Source: Ignavibacteria bacterium (lineage in GTDB: Bacteria; Bacteroidota; Ignavibacteria; Tepidaquicellales; OLB5). Taken from it: DNA of 64,000 nucleotides. Positions 44,648 through 49,466 of the stretch are shown here, piece after piece. Positions within the stretch are counted from its first letter, which is position 1. Every line of letters starts with the position of its first letter. Position numbers and translations under genes: made by a program. Under the pieces are notes generated by a model. The model worked only from the letters and a program-made list of their open reading frames with translations. It was not told where the DNA came from and searched no databases. Location: contig JAUQWS010000023.1 in assembly GCA_030835025.1 (NCBI GenBank), positions 1 to 64,000 on the forward strand. The letters run 5' to 3'.

Positions 44648-44678
44648 GACCTGCTGAGAAGGGCTGTTTCAGCAGGTT
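44648..44678. terminator. Bidirectional terminator
   Basis: ACCTGCTGA / TCAGCAGGT 9-bp stem with A/T flanks, between the convergent DUF4440 and arsR-type genes; it ends exactly at the arsR stop codon. Confidence 0.75.
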
Positions 44679-44992
44679 TAAACATCTTTTGTCTCTTCAA
44701 GAAATTTCTCGAGGGCATCCAGTTTTTGGGTCCAGAATATTCTGTACTTCTCTACCCAGTTTGAGACTTCCTTCAATTTTTCAAGCCTCGGCTCACAATA
44801 CCGCTCTCTGCCTTCCTTCCTTATTTTCACAAGGCCGCATTCTTTCAAAACTCTTACATGTTTTGATACCGCAGGCCTCGAGATCCTGAACTTCTCAGCA
44901 ACTCCGTTAAGGGTCAGCTGTTCTGCGGTAATGATACCAAGTATCTGCCTTCGTGTCGGGTCAGCAATTGCGTGAAATACATCTCTTCTCAT
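44678..44992 (-). CDS. ArsR-family transcriptional regulator (AHSA1-associated type)
   Basis: 104-residue winged-helix repressor. Seen: 'FHAIADPTRRQILGIIT', recognition helix region 'ISRPAVSKHVRVLKECGLV', wing 'IRKEGRERYCE', and the C-terminal dimer helix 'YRIFWTQKLDALEKFLEE'. The metal-site cysteines of ArsR/SmtB are absent; this form is the one usually encoded beside AHSA1/SRPBCC proteins. It is the last gene of the ten-gene minus-strand run starting at 49466, and I infer that it represses that run through the two dyads at 49487-49526. Effector unknown. Confidence 0.85.
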   Translation of the reverse strand: MRRDVFHAIADPTRRQILGIITAEQLTLNGVAEKFRISRPAVSKHVRVLKECGLVKIRKEGRERYCEPRLEKLKEVSNWVEKYRIFWTQKLDALEKFLEETKDV

Positions 44993-45017: not shown

Positions 45018-45281
45018 CTAATATGAAAATGTCATTGAGTTCATAACCTTTACATCAGACTCGTAAATCGTATCTTCAAGAACATCACACTTATAGCCCA
45101 TCCGGTTAAGCTGTTCCTCAATATCTGTTGCTTTTACTGCCTCGGCTTTTACCCTCAAAATCCTGTCGCAGTCTTCCAGGTCAATATTCATTCTGTACCC
45201 AGGGAATTTTATATTGAGTACACTAAGCACATAACCTGCCTCGGCTGTAGTTTCAACATTTGTTCTGAATTTTTCTACCAT
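45018..45281 (-). CDS. HMA-like ferredoxin-fold small protein without the metal motif
   Basis: 87 residues with an alternating strand-helix-strand-strand-helix-strand pattern ('KFRTNVETTAEAGYVLSVL', 'YRMNIDLEDCDRILRVKA', 'DIEEQLNRMGYKCDVLED') like the heavy-metal-associated ferredoxin fold. The CxxC metal motif normally found in the first loop is missing, so metal binding is unlikely at that site. It lies between DoxX and ArsR genes in the AHSA1 cluster. Function unknown. Confidence 0.5.
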   Translation of the reverse strand: MVEKFRTNVETTAEAGYVLSVLNIKFPGYRMNIDLEDCDRILRVKAEAVKATDIEEQLNRMGYKCDVLEDTIYESDVKVMNSMTFSY

Positions 45282-45317: not shown

Positions 45318-45803
45318 TCAATTATTTGAATACGAAGCATTATTTGTAACTGCAATACTGTTCTTATTCCTTAGATTCGTAATAACTCTGTCAACACTAT
45401 ACTTGCCCGCACCTAAAAAAATTAATGCTACAAATACCGAGAACAATTCCATTGGATGAAATGCAACATGCCATGGGTCTAATGCTTTAAGATGATGAAA
45501 CGACGCCATGAACATTGTGAACGCCATGAAAAATGCCGTTGTGCGTGTGAACAGCCCAAGAATCAGAAAAATACCGCCAAAGAACTCGCTTGCCATTGCT
45601 ATGAATCCCCACATCAAATGCCCGAAGCCTATACCCAGATAGTTCATTGCTGTACCTATTTGCTCCCAAAGTACGGGTCCACCCTGAATCTTGAATAATC
45701 CGTAAGTGGAAGCAAACGCCAGGCCTACGCCTATCCGCATAATTAGGATACCCGCATCTTTATTTCTATCGAAAAACCTGCTTAATAATTTCATAATTGT
45801 CAA
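45318..45803 (-). CDS. DoxX-family membrane protein
   Basis: 161 residues with four hydrophobic helices and the DoxX pattern ('LIMRIGVGLAFASTYGLFKI', 'AMNYLGIGFGHLMWGFIAMA', 'EFFGGIFLILGLFTRTTAFF', 'FVALIFLGAGKYSVDRVI'). DoxX proteins are inner-membrane proteins linked in various bacteria to redox or thiol stress; no enzymatic role is certain. Part of the AHSA1/ArsR run. An in-frame ATG three codons on is an alternative start. Confidence 0.75.
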   Translation of the reverse strand: MTIMKLLSRFFDRNKDAGILIMRIGVGLAFASTYGLFKIQGGPVLWEQIGTAMNYLGIGFGHLMWGFIAMASEFFGGIFLILGLFTRTTAFFMAFTMFMASFHHLKALDPWHVAFHPMELFSVFVALIFLGAGKYSVDRVITNLRNKNSIAVTNNASYSNN

Positions 45804-45831: not shown

Positions 45832-46353
45832 TCACTTCTGTGCCAAAGCAATTTTCATTTCCTCAACAGCCTTTTCGCCATCTTTAGTAATGCCCATAAT
45901 TTCCGTAAATACGCCGATCTCTTTTCGTGTATCAAACATAACTATCCTGGCAATTGGCGTATCGAAGCTGCTTACAATTGTAAAGCCCTTGCCTTCGAAC
46001 TCCGAGATAACTTTCTCAAGGTTTGAAACGGGAGTGCTGTATGCAATATGCTGAACTCCGCCTGCCGGATTAATTTCTATGTAATCCTTAAAAATACTCT
46101 TCCCTGTAATTGGCTGAATAAGTTCAATAAATGTACCGCCTGAATAAGCCATTGCCATGAGATTTTCTGCTTCAGACGGTTCACCATAGTAGGTTCCGTT
46201 GTATTCCTTAAGGCGTGTCTTGGTCACCGGACTGAAATTGGTAACACCAAACGATTCCTGAAAGAATGTCTTTGCTTTCTCTACATCTTTAACCACCCAG
46301 GCTATTTGAGAAGGTGTTAGTCCGGAGGTACTTTCATTCTTTGTCATTTTCAT
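45832..46353 (-). CDS. VOC-family (glyoxalase-like) protein
   Basis: 173 residues with two beta-alpha-beta-beta-beta modules of the vicinal-oxygen-chelate fold: 'QIAWVVKDVEKAKTFFQESF' at the start of module 1, 'GTFIELIQPI' at its end, and 'GGVQHIAYSTPVSNLEKVIS' opening module 2, ending 'FDTRKEIGVFTEIM'. Candidate metal ligands include a glutamate in 'FIELIQP', His in 'VQHIAY' and Glu in 'VFTEIM'. Enzymes of this fold act on glyoxals, catechols or antibiotics; substrate not assignable. Confidence 0.75.
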   Translation of the reverse strand: MKMTKNESTSGLTPSQIAWVVKDVEKAKTFFQESFGVTNFSPVTKTRLKEYNGTYYGEPSEAENLMAMAYSGGTFIELIQPITGKSIFKDYIEINPAGGVQHIAYSTPVSNLEKVISEFEGKGFTIVSSFDTPIARIVMFDTRKEIGVFTEIMGITKDGEKAVEEMKIALAQK

Positions 46354-46386: not shown

Positions 46387-46869
46387 TTAATCAGAAACCA
46401 GATCCTGCAACTTAACCAAACTATGATCCCAGCCTGTCTCCATATCGCCCAAGGCCTCAACTGCTTCGGGTGGACACTTCGTAACCTCTACATTCAGTTT
46501 AAGTTCAGTTTTTCCACCGAGCTCTCTGAAAGTAACTGTATTCATGCTTTCAATAAGGTATTCGCCTTTCTCATCACCGTAACAGGTGGCAATAAACACG
46601 ATCTTTTTTCCGGGGATTATTTCAATGAAGTTTCCTCTCATTGGAAATTGTGAGCCATCCGGACCCTGCATAATAACATTGATATTTCCGTTTGGCACGA
46701 TATCAAGCTCACAAACCGGGTTTATGAATCCCTGCGGCCCCCACCACAAAGCGAACAACTCCGGGTCTGCCCAGGCTTGAAAGACCTTATCAACGGGCGC
46801 ATTGAAGATTCGGGAAAGTTCAAGTCCTTCTTTCAGGACCTTTTCAGCAGCCGAAGAAGTTTTATTCAT
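46387..46869 (-). CDS. SRPBCC/AHSA1-family protein
   Basis: 160 residues from the ATG at 46869. Seen: the AHSA1 pattern 'LELSRIFNAPVDKVFQAWAD', 'LWWGPQGFINPVCELDI', 'MRGNFIEIIPGKKIVFI' and 'TGWDHSLVKLQDLV', forming a lipid/ligand-binding START-like pocket. The frame stays open to 47046, but the extra 59 residues contain a fossil ArsR C-terminal helix (see 46888) and not an AHSA1 part, so I start the gene at 46869. Confidence 0.8.
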   Translation of the reverse strand: MNKTSSAAEKVLKEGLELSRIFNAPVDKVFQAWADPELFALWWGPQGFINPVCELDIVPNGNINVIMQGPDGSQFPMRGNFIEIIPGKKIVFIATCYGDEKGEYLIESMNTVTFRELGGKTELKLNVEVTKCPPEAVEALGDMETGWDHSLVKLQDLVSD

Positions 46870-46887
46870 GTAAGTTGATTGAATTAA

Positions 46888-46947
46888 AGTTTGTCTTAAG
46901 AAATCTTCAAGTGAATTAAGCTTTGCTTCCCAAAACATCCTGTAAAA
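46888..46947 (-). pseudogene. Fossil ArsR C-terminal helix
   Basis: Translates as 'FYRMFWEAKLNSLEDFLRQT'. The living ArsR of this cluster ends 'KYRIFWTQKLDALEKFLEET': 12 of 20 positions match. The rest of an arsR gene is missing upstream, so this is a relic of a second regulator gene that lay between two AHSA1 genes. Confidence 0.6.
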
Positions 46948-47048
46948 AGCAAGGATCGCATTCTCTTCCGATTGTCCCGCACTCAGCGTGTTCAATCGTA
47001 CTTTCTTCCCGTTAAGAGTGCTCCTGTTCCGCAAGAAAAACGGCACAG

Positions 47049-47522
47049 TTACTTATTCTTTTTGAGGAACTCTTCCAGCCTGCCGATATGCTGTTCCCAG
47101 CCCTCAATAGCTCCGTATTCCTTAATAGTATATTCCAGCCTTTCTGCCGTTCTGAAGCGCATAACAACTGCAATTTCAGTTTTCCCATCCAGATCCCTGA
47201 ATTCAGTTGTAACGTGGAACTGCCCGGGATCATCATCCTTGTCTGAATCCTGCATATATACAAGCCTGCTGGGGAAAGTGATCTCCTCGAATATAATTCT
47301 GTTGTCGTAATCCGTTCCGTCCGGACCGTGCATAATGAAACGCCATACACCGCCCGGCTTAAGCTCGAATTCGTGAAAAGTATTTGTGAACCCGTCCGGC
47401 CCAAACCACTGGATAAGCTGCTTAGGATCTGTCCATGCCCTGAAGACACGGTCTATTGGCGCATTAACAACACGTTTCAGACGAAGCTCATTTTCATTTA
47501 TAATATGTTCTCCAGTTTTCAT
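47049..47522 (-). CDS. SRPBCC/AHSA1-family protein
   Basis: 157 residues with the standard layout: 'LRLKRVVNAPIDRVFRAWTD', 'QLIQWFGPDGFTNTFHEFEL', 'GGVWRFIMHGPDG', 'IIFEEITFPSRLVYM', and 'EGWEQHIGRLEEFLKK' at the end. One of four paralogues in the operon; the four differ enough that the duplications are not recent. AHSA1-like proteins share a hydrophobic pocket, but no ligand is known for this group. Confidence 0.85.
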   Translation of the reverse strand: MKTGEHIINENELRLKRVVNAPIDRVFRAWTDPKQLIQWFGPDGFTNTFHEFELKPGGVWRFIMHGPDGTDYDNRIIFEEITFPSRLVYMQDSDKDDDPGQFHVTTEFRDLDGKTEIAVVMRFRTAERLEYTIKEYGAIEGWEQHIGRLEEFLKKNK

Positions 47523-47555: not shown

Positions 47556-48053
47556 TTAATCATACTTAATAGCAGGATACCCGAGAAGCCTTCTCCACAA
47601 TGCAAGCTGACCAATCATGTTAGCTTCGCGGTAAATCATGAAAGTCATCATGTCATACCAGGGAAATTTCATATCCGGCATTTCGAAATCAGTGTTAAGC
47701 TTTTCGTCGGTAAGCTCTGCGCATGTTTTTCTGAAAAGCGGAGATATCTTCTTCCAGTCCTCTGCATAAACAGAAAGTGAAGGATAATCGCCATCATCCT
47801 GAATTCCTTTGTAGTCTTTGAAAAGCTCATCGGCTGTTTGTTTCAGCTTATTGCCGGTCAGTTCATTGTACATTTCAAACCGCTGCTGAAGAAGGCTGCC
47901 CGCGATCCATGCAGGATGGTTTGCTTTTGTGTTAAGCCTGTTCAATGAATCACTTTCTGAAATTCCTTCAATTGCCTTGAGAAAGTAATCTGTATGGAGA
48001 TCGTACAGCTTTACCAGCGATTCCATTCTTGTACTTGTTGTTTTATTTGACAT
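47556..48053 (-). CDS. DinB-fold protein lacking the metal histidines
   Basis: 165 residues with the four-helix DinB/YfiT pattern: 'LVKLYDLHTDYFLKAIEGI', 'NHPAWIAGSLLQQRFEM', and 'MIYREANMIGQLALWRRLLG'. In metal-binding members the second helix has 'GH' and the last has 'H..HiGQ'; here these positions read 'GS', 'R' and 'N', so the metal site is probably lost. This is unrelated to the DNA polymerase also called DinB. Lies inside the AHSA1 cluster. Confidence 0.75.
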   Translation of the reverse strand: MSNKTTSTRMESLVKLYDLHTDYFLKAIEGISESDSLNRLNTKANHPAWIAGSLLQQRFEMYNELTGNKLKQTADELFKDYKGIQDDGDYPSLSVYAEDWKKISPLFRKTCAELTDEKLNTDFEMPDMKFPWYDMMTFMIYREANMIGQLALWRRLLGYPAIKYD

Positions 48054-48082: not shown

Positions 48083-48466
48083 TTAGAAATTTACTTTTAT
48101 ATTGAATCCGCCATACGACATGCGTTTCATATCAAATGGCATGTCATTTGGATCCATCATTTTTTCGAGTCGCGGATCCTTCATTATTTTTTCATTTACA
48201 CTATCCCGGTGCTTCTTTGATCTGTAGACTATCCAGGAAAAGAAAACAACTTCATTGGATTTCGCCTTAGCCGCTTTTGCAAATGGTACTCCCATTTTAA
48301 TGTTCATGTCATCACCCGCGCACTCCCTGTATTCAAGCGCACCATGCTCCATCCAAACTTTTCCCGCTTTTTTTGACATTTTGACATAAGCAGCAAGTTT
48401 TCTCTTAGGTATTGCCAACAGGAATCCGTCAGCATAACGCCCTTTGCTTCTATTGCTTTTTGCCAT
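48083..48466 (-). CDS. DUF1428 (YbaA-like) protein
   Basis: 127 residues. Seen: 'YADGFLLAIPKRKLAAYVKM', 'WMEHGALEYRECAGDDM', 'VVFFSWIVYRSKKHRDSVNE' and 'MPFDMKRMSYGGFNIKV', which closely follow the DUF1428 family order (a ferredoxin-like alpha-beta barrel fold). The family's biochemical role is not established, but it commonly travels with AHSA1 and DinB-fold genes as here. Confidence 0.85.
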   Translation of the reverse strand: MAKSNRSKGRYADGFLLAIPKRKLAAYVKMSKKAGKVWMEHGALEYRECAGDDMNIKMGVPFAKAAKAKSNEVVFFSWIVYRSKKHRDSVNEKIMKDPRLEKMMDPNDMPFDMKRMSYGGFNIKVNF

Positions 48467-48489: not shown

Positions 48490-48978
48490 TTATTGATTTA
48501 ACAAAACTTTTTCAAGCTTATCAAGTGTTTCGTTCCAGCCTGTACCAGTCATATCCTTCATTCTGCCTGCAGGCAATCCTTCGTGTCTAAGGGTCATTTT
48601 TGTTTTTCCGTCAACATCTTCAAGCGTGATTGTGATCATCATCTCCAGGGGAAAATCATCTCCCATGCCATAATCGCTTGCAGGTACAACATTGCCTTTC
48701 TTATCTGCAAATGAATCAGTCATAACTAGCTTCTCGTTTTCAACAACTTCTTTGTAAACACCGGTTGACCAGTATTCTTTCCCGTCGGGAGCTTTCATGC
48801 AGTTAAGATATTTCCCTCCCGGACGAAGGTCCAATTCACAATACGGCGCAGTGAAGTCTTTTGGTCCCCACCACTTTTTTGTAATTTCAGGATCTGTCCA
48901 TGCTTTCCATACTGTTGCACTCGGAGCGTTGAAGATCCTTGTTATTACCAGCACATTCTCTCTAACTTCTGTTCCCAT
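48490..48978 (-). CDS. SRPBCC/AHSA1-family protein
   Basis: 162 residues: 'LVITRIFNAPSATVWKAWTD', 'ITKKWWGPKDFTAPYCELDL', 'GGKYLNCMKAPDG', 'TMTLRHEGLPAG' and 'TGWNETLDKLEKVL'. Typical single-domain AHSA1 protein; second gene of the run. The 'KKWWGP' box and the 'GW....DKLE' helix are the best family markers. Confidence 0.85.
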   Translation of the reverse strand: MGTEVRENVLVITRIFNAPSATVWKAWTDPEITKKWWGPKDFTAPYCELDLRPGGKYLNCMKAPDGKEYWSTGVYKEVVENEKLVMTDSFADKKGNVVPASDYGMGDDFPLEMMITITLEDVDGKTKMTLRHEGLPAGRMKDMTGTGWNETLDKLEKVLLNQ

Positions 48979-49034: not shown

Positions 49035-49466
49035 TTACTGCTTTGTTTCAACAAAATTCTTAAGAGATGTTCCGATAATTCCCGTCCAGCCGCGAACAAA
49101 GTTATGCCTTGCAAGATCCGGATTATCTGCAGGGAATGTCTCAAGTCCGGCATGTGTCAGTTTGAGCCTAGTCCTATTTCCTTCTTCAAACAGTTCCCAT
49201 GTTACAAGTGATTCCCCTTCATAGCCGTCATATTTCCATGTATATGCAATCTTCTTTCCTTCTTCAACTTCTGTTACCCTGCATAAATGCAGATAAGTTT
49301 TGCCTTTGTCTCCTCCTTCGAAACTGAATTCAAATCCGACTTTAGGATTGAACTCCGGCAATTCAAAATACCACTGTTTCATATCGTCTTTATCCGTGAT
49401 CGCTTTCCAGACTCTTGATGCCGGAGCATTTAAAACTATTTCCTGAATATACGGTTCGTTATTCAT
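49035..49466 (-). CDS. SRPBCC/AHSA1-family protein, first gene of the operon
   Basis: 143 residues: 'IVLNAPASRVWKAITDKDDM', 'QWYFELPEFNPKVGFEFSFE', 'KKIAYTWKYDGYEGESLVTW', 'RTRLKLTHAGLETFP' and 'FVRGWTGIIGTSLKNFVE'. It opens the ten-gene run that ends with arsR; the promoter and the two matching dyads lie 21-67 bp upstream of its ATG. Confidence 0.85.
   Translation of the reverse strand: MNNEPYIQEIVLNAPASRVWKAITDKDDMKQWYFELPEFNPKVGFEFSFEGGDKGKTYLHLCRVTEVEEGKKIAYTWKYDGYEGESLVTWELFEEGNRTRLKLTHAGLETFPADNPDLARHNFVRGWTGIIGTSLKNFVETKQ

Follow-up and report, generated by a model that had tools for sequence, protein, structure and literature searches.

A probable remnant of a second arsR gene between two AHSA1 genes of an Ignavibacteria cluster

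The gap between the third and fourth AHSA1 genes (A3 and A4) of a ten-gene cluster in an Ignavibacteria bacterium probably holds the truncated, dead remnant of a second arsR; we give this reading a probability of roughly 0.78. It is the simplest account. The match to ArsR, the position of the segment, the undetectable winged-helix DNA-binding (HTH) part and the lack of a comparable extension in the other proteins of the A4 clade are direct observations; we infer both the loss of function and the order of events. A deletion would have removed the HTH part of the second arsR, and the remainder, some 22 codons from the C-terminal helix (in ArsR proteins a dimerisation helix), would now form the spacer between A3 and A4 and read in frame into A4.

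The window, i.e. the whole stretch of 64,000 nucleotides analysed here, carries the cluster on its minus strand. Ten genes form a packed row in the order A1-A2-DUF1428-165aa-A3-(relic)-A4-VOC-DoxX-87aa-ArsR. Eight of the nine gaps measure 23-56 nt, and the A3/A4 gap (47048-46870, 179 nt) is the sole long one. The features are the following:

49035-49466, minus strand: A1, AHSA1 gene (PF08327), first of the cluster
48490-48978, minus strand: A2, AHSA1 gene (PF08327)
48083-48466, minus strand: DUF1428 gene
47556-48053, minus strand: gene for 165 aa, without a Pfam or NCBIfam match ('DinB' is a by-eye label)
47049-47522, minus strand: A3, AHSA1 gene (PF08327), upstream of the relic
46948-47048, minus strand: upstream part of the gap, free of stops in the A4 frame, not clearly ArsR-like
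46885-46956, minus strand: probable remnant of an ArsR C-terminal helix, about 22-24 codons, with its core FYRMFWEAKLNSLEDFLRQT at 46888-46947
46387-46869, minus strand: A4, AHSA1 gene (PF08327), 160 aa counted from ATG 46869, sharing the relic's reading frame
45832-46353, minus strand: VOC/glyoxalase-family gene (PF13669)
45318-45803, minus strand: DoxX-family gene (PF07681)
45018-45281, minus strand: gene for 87 aa, without a significant family match ('HMA' is a by-eye label)
44678-44992, minus strand: live ArsR of subtype I, the cluster's last gene, above the cut-off of NF033788 (ArsR/SmtB)

As a whole, the cluster combines an ArsR family gene and four PF08327 genes in one operon-like array, as in an ArsR-COG3832 module. 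Judged from sequence, the single ArsR at the 3′ end probably controls the whole cluster now, its genes being presumably co-transcribed. A search near the A3/A4 gap for known RNAs and terminators found none, and one sigma-70-like site was located inside A3 (47156-47127) with a promoter model which may not suit the host organism. A further ArsR-family match (45.1 bits) lies outside the window on the same contig, about 32 kb from the cluster (G000:C68:81339-81563). By eye, the live ArsR (44678-44992) is without an ELCVCDL-type motif, which we take to be the ArsR metal site. This agrees with the available part of the module account, where the ArsR subfamily of the modules is said to be without metal-binding motifs (PMC2701414).

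The preliminary description had pointed to an open frame ahead of the A4 gene and to its likeness to the C-terminal helix of the live ArsR. The frame is real: opening at GTG 47046 and closed by the stop at 46387, it spans 219 aa and encodes FYRMFWEAKLNSLEDFLRQT at 46888-46947. The likeness is equally borne out. On the gap frame, a profile of 27 ArsRs scores 16.8 bits (16.6 bits without the window's own ArsR) versus 0.3 bits for a profile of 72 AHSA1 open reading frames; for this comparison a weak ArsR relative scoring below 80 bits was dropped and the AHSA1 profile was built without the window's A4. The low AHSA1 score rules out the C-terminal helix of AHSA1 proteins, which also reads W...L..LE.FL, as the source. 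For the gap frame alone, the match has E = 2.8e-7, or 3.2e-7 if the window's own ArsR is left out; these values assume a search size of one sequence, and the scan covered six frames. Across the organism's own 3.0-Mb genome, the relic is recovered at E = 0.33 with the live ArsR as single query (fifth of five matches), at E = 0.049 with a 20-row ArsR alignment (third of three) and at E = 0.017 with a 6-row subtype II alignment (third of four); with the last of these, another genomic match, on the profile's HTH portion, nearly equals the relic (E = 0.027).

Further comparisons place the relic close behind genuine ArsR genes. A six-frame control of 543 kb comprised the window and 50 loci, the latter chosen for their ArsR or AHSA1 genes and therefore not a random sample. 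The relic scores 15.2 and 13.7 bits there with two profiles and comes directly after the ArsR-family genes (45 matches of at least 60 bits, then one weak ArsR relative), and the next sequences reach 11.1 and 9.9 bits. Of 200 dinucleotide shuffles made from the gap, not one attains the relic's score in any of three gap/frameshift settings. Among the residues invariant in 20 ArsRs, R84, W87, L94 and L98 are all retained in the relic helix and W79 is lost. By score alone, the match to ArsR is modest. It is convincing together with the position in the cluster, since the helix lies on the sense strand, in the only 179-nt gap, and ends six codons ahead of the A4 start codon. Against a dead arsR speak the small number of matching codons (about 22), the missing W79 and the genome-wide E values, which are weak without the position (0.017-0.33). 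The stop-free frame of 59 codons is also more open than expected for a long-dead gene.

The fossil had been placed at 46870-47046; the ArsR-like part comprises about 22-24 codons (46885-46956 across searches), matching ArsR profile positions of about 80-102 only, and the rest of the span is not clearly ArsR-like. The HTH part, which marks a functional ArsR/SmtB regulator, was sought in the gap and was not found above shuffles. The upstream 101-104 nt alone give a score which is reached or exceeded by 55-99 of 200 shuffles with either ArsR subtype. When the helix is kept fixed and the upstream part is shuffled, 96-200 of 200 shuffles still attain the whole-gap score with subtype I and only 18-47 of 200 do so with subtype II, the latter being a weak hint of some further ArsR trace upstream of the helix. 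A longer, frameshifted arsR upstream, for which a second frame had been read by eye (CG...GRKY...R), was rejected because the upstream part alone is no better than shuffles. At the opposite end of the helix, the best frame-tolerant profile path gains three more residues past a 1-nt shift, which is too little to count. GC content is 50.5% at 46948-47048 and 29.5% at 46870-46947.

On position-specific tail profiles of the ArsR subtypes, the relic scores 30.9 (II), 28.3 (I), 24.0 (IV) and 16.1 (III) bits. Of the real tails tested by leave-one-out on their own subtype, 42 of 43 score 33.7-70.7 bits, above the relic's maximum of 30.9 bits; six of the 49 ArsRs (L074, L092, L104, two of L115, and L116) were left out of these profiles and the 43rd tail (L094) is mislocated. 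The low score of the relic is as expected of a decayed copy, and it could also be a sign of an unsampled ArsR subtype. In pairwise comparisons with the tails of 49 ArsR open reading frames, the top four are of subtype II (61, 61, 59, 58), the fourth tied with a haloarchaeal tail (58). The live ArsR ranks sixth (56), and the remaining two subtype II tails come 11th and 22nd (51, 42). Tails and profiles lean toward subtype II for the relic, by a small margin over I that allows either.

The phylogeny of the four AHSA1 proteins, proposed in the preliminary description as a check, was carried out on 116 domains (SH-aLRT being the sole support measure, and 41 of the 113 inner branches left open). 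A1 falls in a clade of 16 rows (97), A2 in one of 18 rows (96) and A4 in one of 8 rows (99), and A3 belongs to a 48-row group (97) that excludes A4. According to this tree, the four genes are old, separate classes; as they occupy separate clades, they are not products of local duplication.

The relatives inform about the history of the cluster. In the family (15 genomes including the window's), seven genomes carry A1 at E 1e-15, the G005 copy with one internal stop; this count is a lower bound since several of the family genomes without A1 are incomplete. In five of the seven, an ArsR of subtype II lies 3′ of A1 (G005, G011, G013) or of A1-DUF1428 (G002, G006), DUF1428 sitting between A1 and this second ArsR in the last two. 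The second ArsRs of the five genomes form one clade with the ArsR of G028 (100/99). The A1-bearing family genomes without ArsR(II) are the window's and that of its congener G008; in both, A1 belongs to an ArsR(I) cluster. In the most likely history, of which we are less sure than of the remnant itself, a unit of A1 and an ArsR 3′ of it would have merged with an ArsR(I)-governed unit carrying the other AHSA1 classes, and the redundant regulator would have decayed. Such a merger followed by regulator loss fits the family pattern best, because ArsR(II) stands beside A1 in five of the seven genomes and is missing in the two where A1 is in an ArsR(I) cluster. It is not required, since in the class-mate G099 a single ArsR precedes genes of all four AHSA1 classes (L110, within the 10 kb fetched). 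Nor need the relic be the upstream partner of A4, as the second subtype lies 3′ of A1 in all five family genomes. Of the history first proposed, in which at least two ArsR-AHSA1 pairs were joined and a regulator was lost, one part holds: the remnant looks like an ArsR other than the live one. The joining itself may have occurred, as the family pattern favours it.

An identical relic would result if an ArsR had been copied in part or had moved. We consider it possible, if rather less probable, that the relic is of subtype I, the lineage of the live ArsR. An ArsR before A4 would have been copied or moved to the 3′ end and left its tail behind, with no joining of units; this estimate is its share as a history, and the claim of a dead arsR piece is common to both histories. 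Such a move would accord with the usual gene order, as 26 of 30 fetched stretches have both ArsR and AHSA1 and ArsR comes first in 24 of the 26, that is, in all but the window and G008. The end of the relic six codons before A4, the four classes behind one ArsR in G099 and the little difference between the subtype scores (28.3 bits for I, 30.9 bits for II) also fit. On the other hand, the four best of the 49 pairwise tails are of subtype II (the fourth tied with the haloarchaeal one) with the live ArsR sixth, and no other copy of the gap DNA exists in the organism's own genome, whose best remaining matches span 14-24 bases. Furthermore, the live ArsR and that of G008 are sisters (100/97) and neither is first in its own cluster, which implies that this placement is not a recent change of this genome alone.

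The G008 cluster, the nearest to that of the window, has the order A1-A4-A3-DUF1428-ArsR-A1′, and the profiles detect no ArsR relic in it. Behind its ArsR lies a second A1-like gene (L067 184-549, G008:C33), whose match spans A1 residues 26-126 only and whose open frame looks broken at both ends. Judged from this gene, decay may be under way in the G008 cluster as well.

Genome scans for A4 gave six positives among 99 relatives at E 1e-20 (G000, G008, G010, G060, G065, G073), five among 391 class genomes at 1e-27 (G000, G008, G065, G073, G099) and three among 395 phylum genomes at 1e-25 (G000, G073, G099), and a short-pattern search in genome contigs found one locus, which is distant. Six of 309 plasmid records matching A4 were examined, three yielding members of the A4 clade. 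On a Nostoc plasmid, an ArsR precedes the A4 match, yet the gene falls outside the A4 clade. On a Natrinema plasmid, an ArsR precedes a longer SRPBCC gene containing the A4 match, and a Salinigranum plasmid stretch has no annotated ArsR; both were left out of the tree. An intact arsR at the same spot in relatives had been suggested as a further check. It was found directly ahead of the A4-clade gene in two of the seven other members, on haloarchaeal plasmids (L118, L120), and in none of the four bacterial class-mates; no ArsR match above 0 bits occurs within 400 nt before the start in L119, L067, L089, L095 and L110. Between A3 and A4, an intact arsR is absent in every relative examined.

A segment conserved as part of a longer AHSA1 protein, which according to the preliminary description would speak against a fossil, was also looked for. 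All seven other A4-clade proteins lack the N-terminal extension and thus give no sign of a fusion protein; their open frames begin 11-22 residues before the domain motif (L110 counted by eye). This bears on an unlikely reading in which the helix is alive, translation would start at GTG 47046 and the 219-aa A4 would carry the ArsR-derived helix at its N-terminus as a dimerisation arm. The 59 codons without a stop (as in 75 of 5,000 shuffles), the GTG 2 nt past the A3 stop and the codon usage of 46870-46947 (better than 988 of 1,000 shuffles) would agree with it, and the available part of one account mentions AHA1-related domains in proteins of the ArsR family (PMC2577659). However, besides the missing extension in the clade, the upstream part has poor codon usage, at -0.12 per codon where the ten genes give 0.04 to 0.33 over their first 33 codons (79 of 1,000 shuffles do as well), and the usual protein length is already obtained from ATG 46869. 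The relic itself has a codon usage of 0.10 per codon, below the first 33 codons in nine of the ten cluster genes. It is highly improbable that the dimerisation helix of the lost regulator was captured in frame as the N-terminal arm of its AHSA1 ligand-binding neighbour; if so, A4 could pair with the surviving ArsR and pass a ligand signal to it. Very unlikely, too, is an amphipathic helix-like stretch or stray AHSA1 tail resembling ArsR by accident: the match is short and E is 0.017-0.33 per genome, but the AHSA1 profile gives just 0.3 bits, none of 200 shuffles per setting reaches the score, the next sequences in 543 kb lie about 4 bits lower, and strand and place are both right.

ArsR-AHSA1 modules are already known from the parts of two accounts considered here (PMC2701414, PMC4531530), their function being unproven. 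Two-gene modules of ArsR and COG3832 (Aha1) were described as predicted operons with lineage-specific expansions (Biol Direct 2009 4:19, PMC2701414). As in these modules, a putative ArsR repressor adjoins AHSA1/START-family genes in the window; the present cluster differs in its four AHSA1 and other genes, in having its live ArsR as the 3′-terminal gene and in the probable relic of a second ArsR, and relics are not mentioned in that part of the module account. In Frankia, ArsR-like genes likewise stand in a potential operon with AHSA1, a link not elucidated there, whereas the available part of that account has neither a multi-AHSA1 cluster nor a relic (PMC4531530). Gene fragments persist as spacers in Buchnera intergenic regions as well, although there, as far as the excerpt goes, in the reduced genome of a symbiont and here at a single spot of a 3-Mb genome (PMC3164680). 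Among the matches listed in a literature search, titles and the beginnings of abstracts name no ArsR relic in such a cluster. A dead arsR between A3 and A4 is in itself ordinary and small; it would document, at one concrete spot, that ArsR clusters with several AHSA1 genes can lose a regulator. From the comparison within the family, it seems that AHSA1 genes switch regulators during cluster rearrangement.

Lastly, AHSA1 domains also occur in fused proteins. In L095 (5477-6358, G073:C7), an A4-clade AHSA1 domain and a DoxX domain (PF08327, PF07681) form one 293-aa protein; the two families are near neighbours in the window and fused in L095. In L102 (2620-3462, G013:C35), an AHSA1 and NUDIX domain fusion directly follows a subtype II ArsR.
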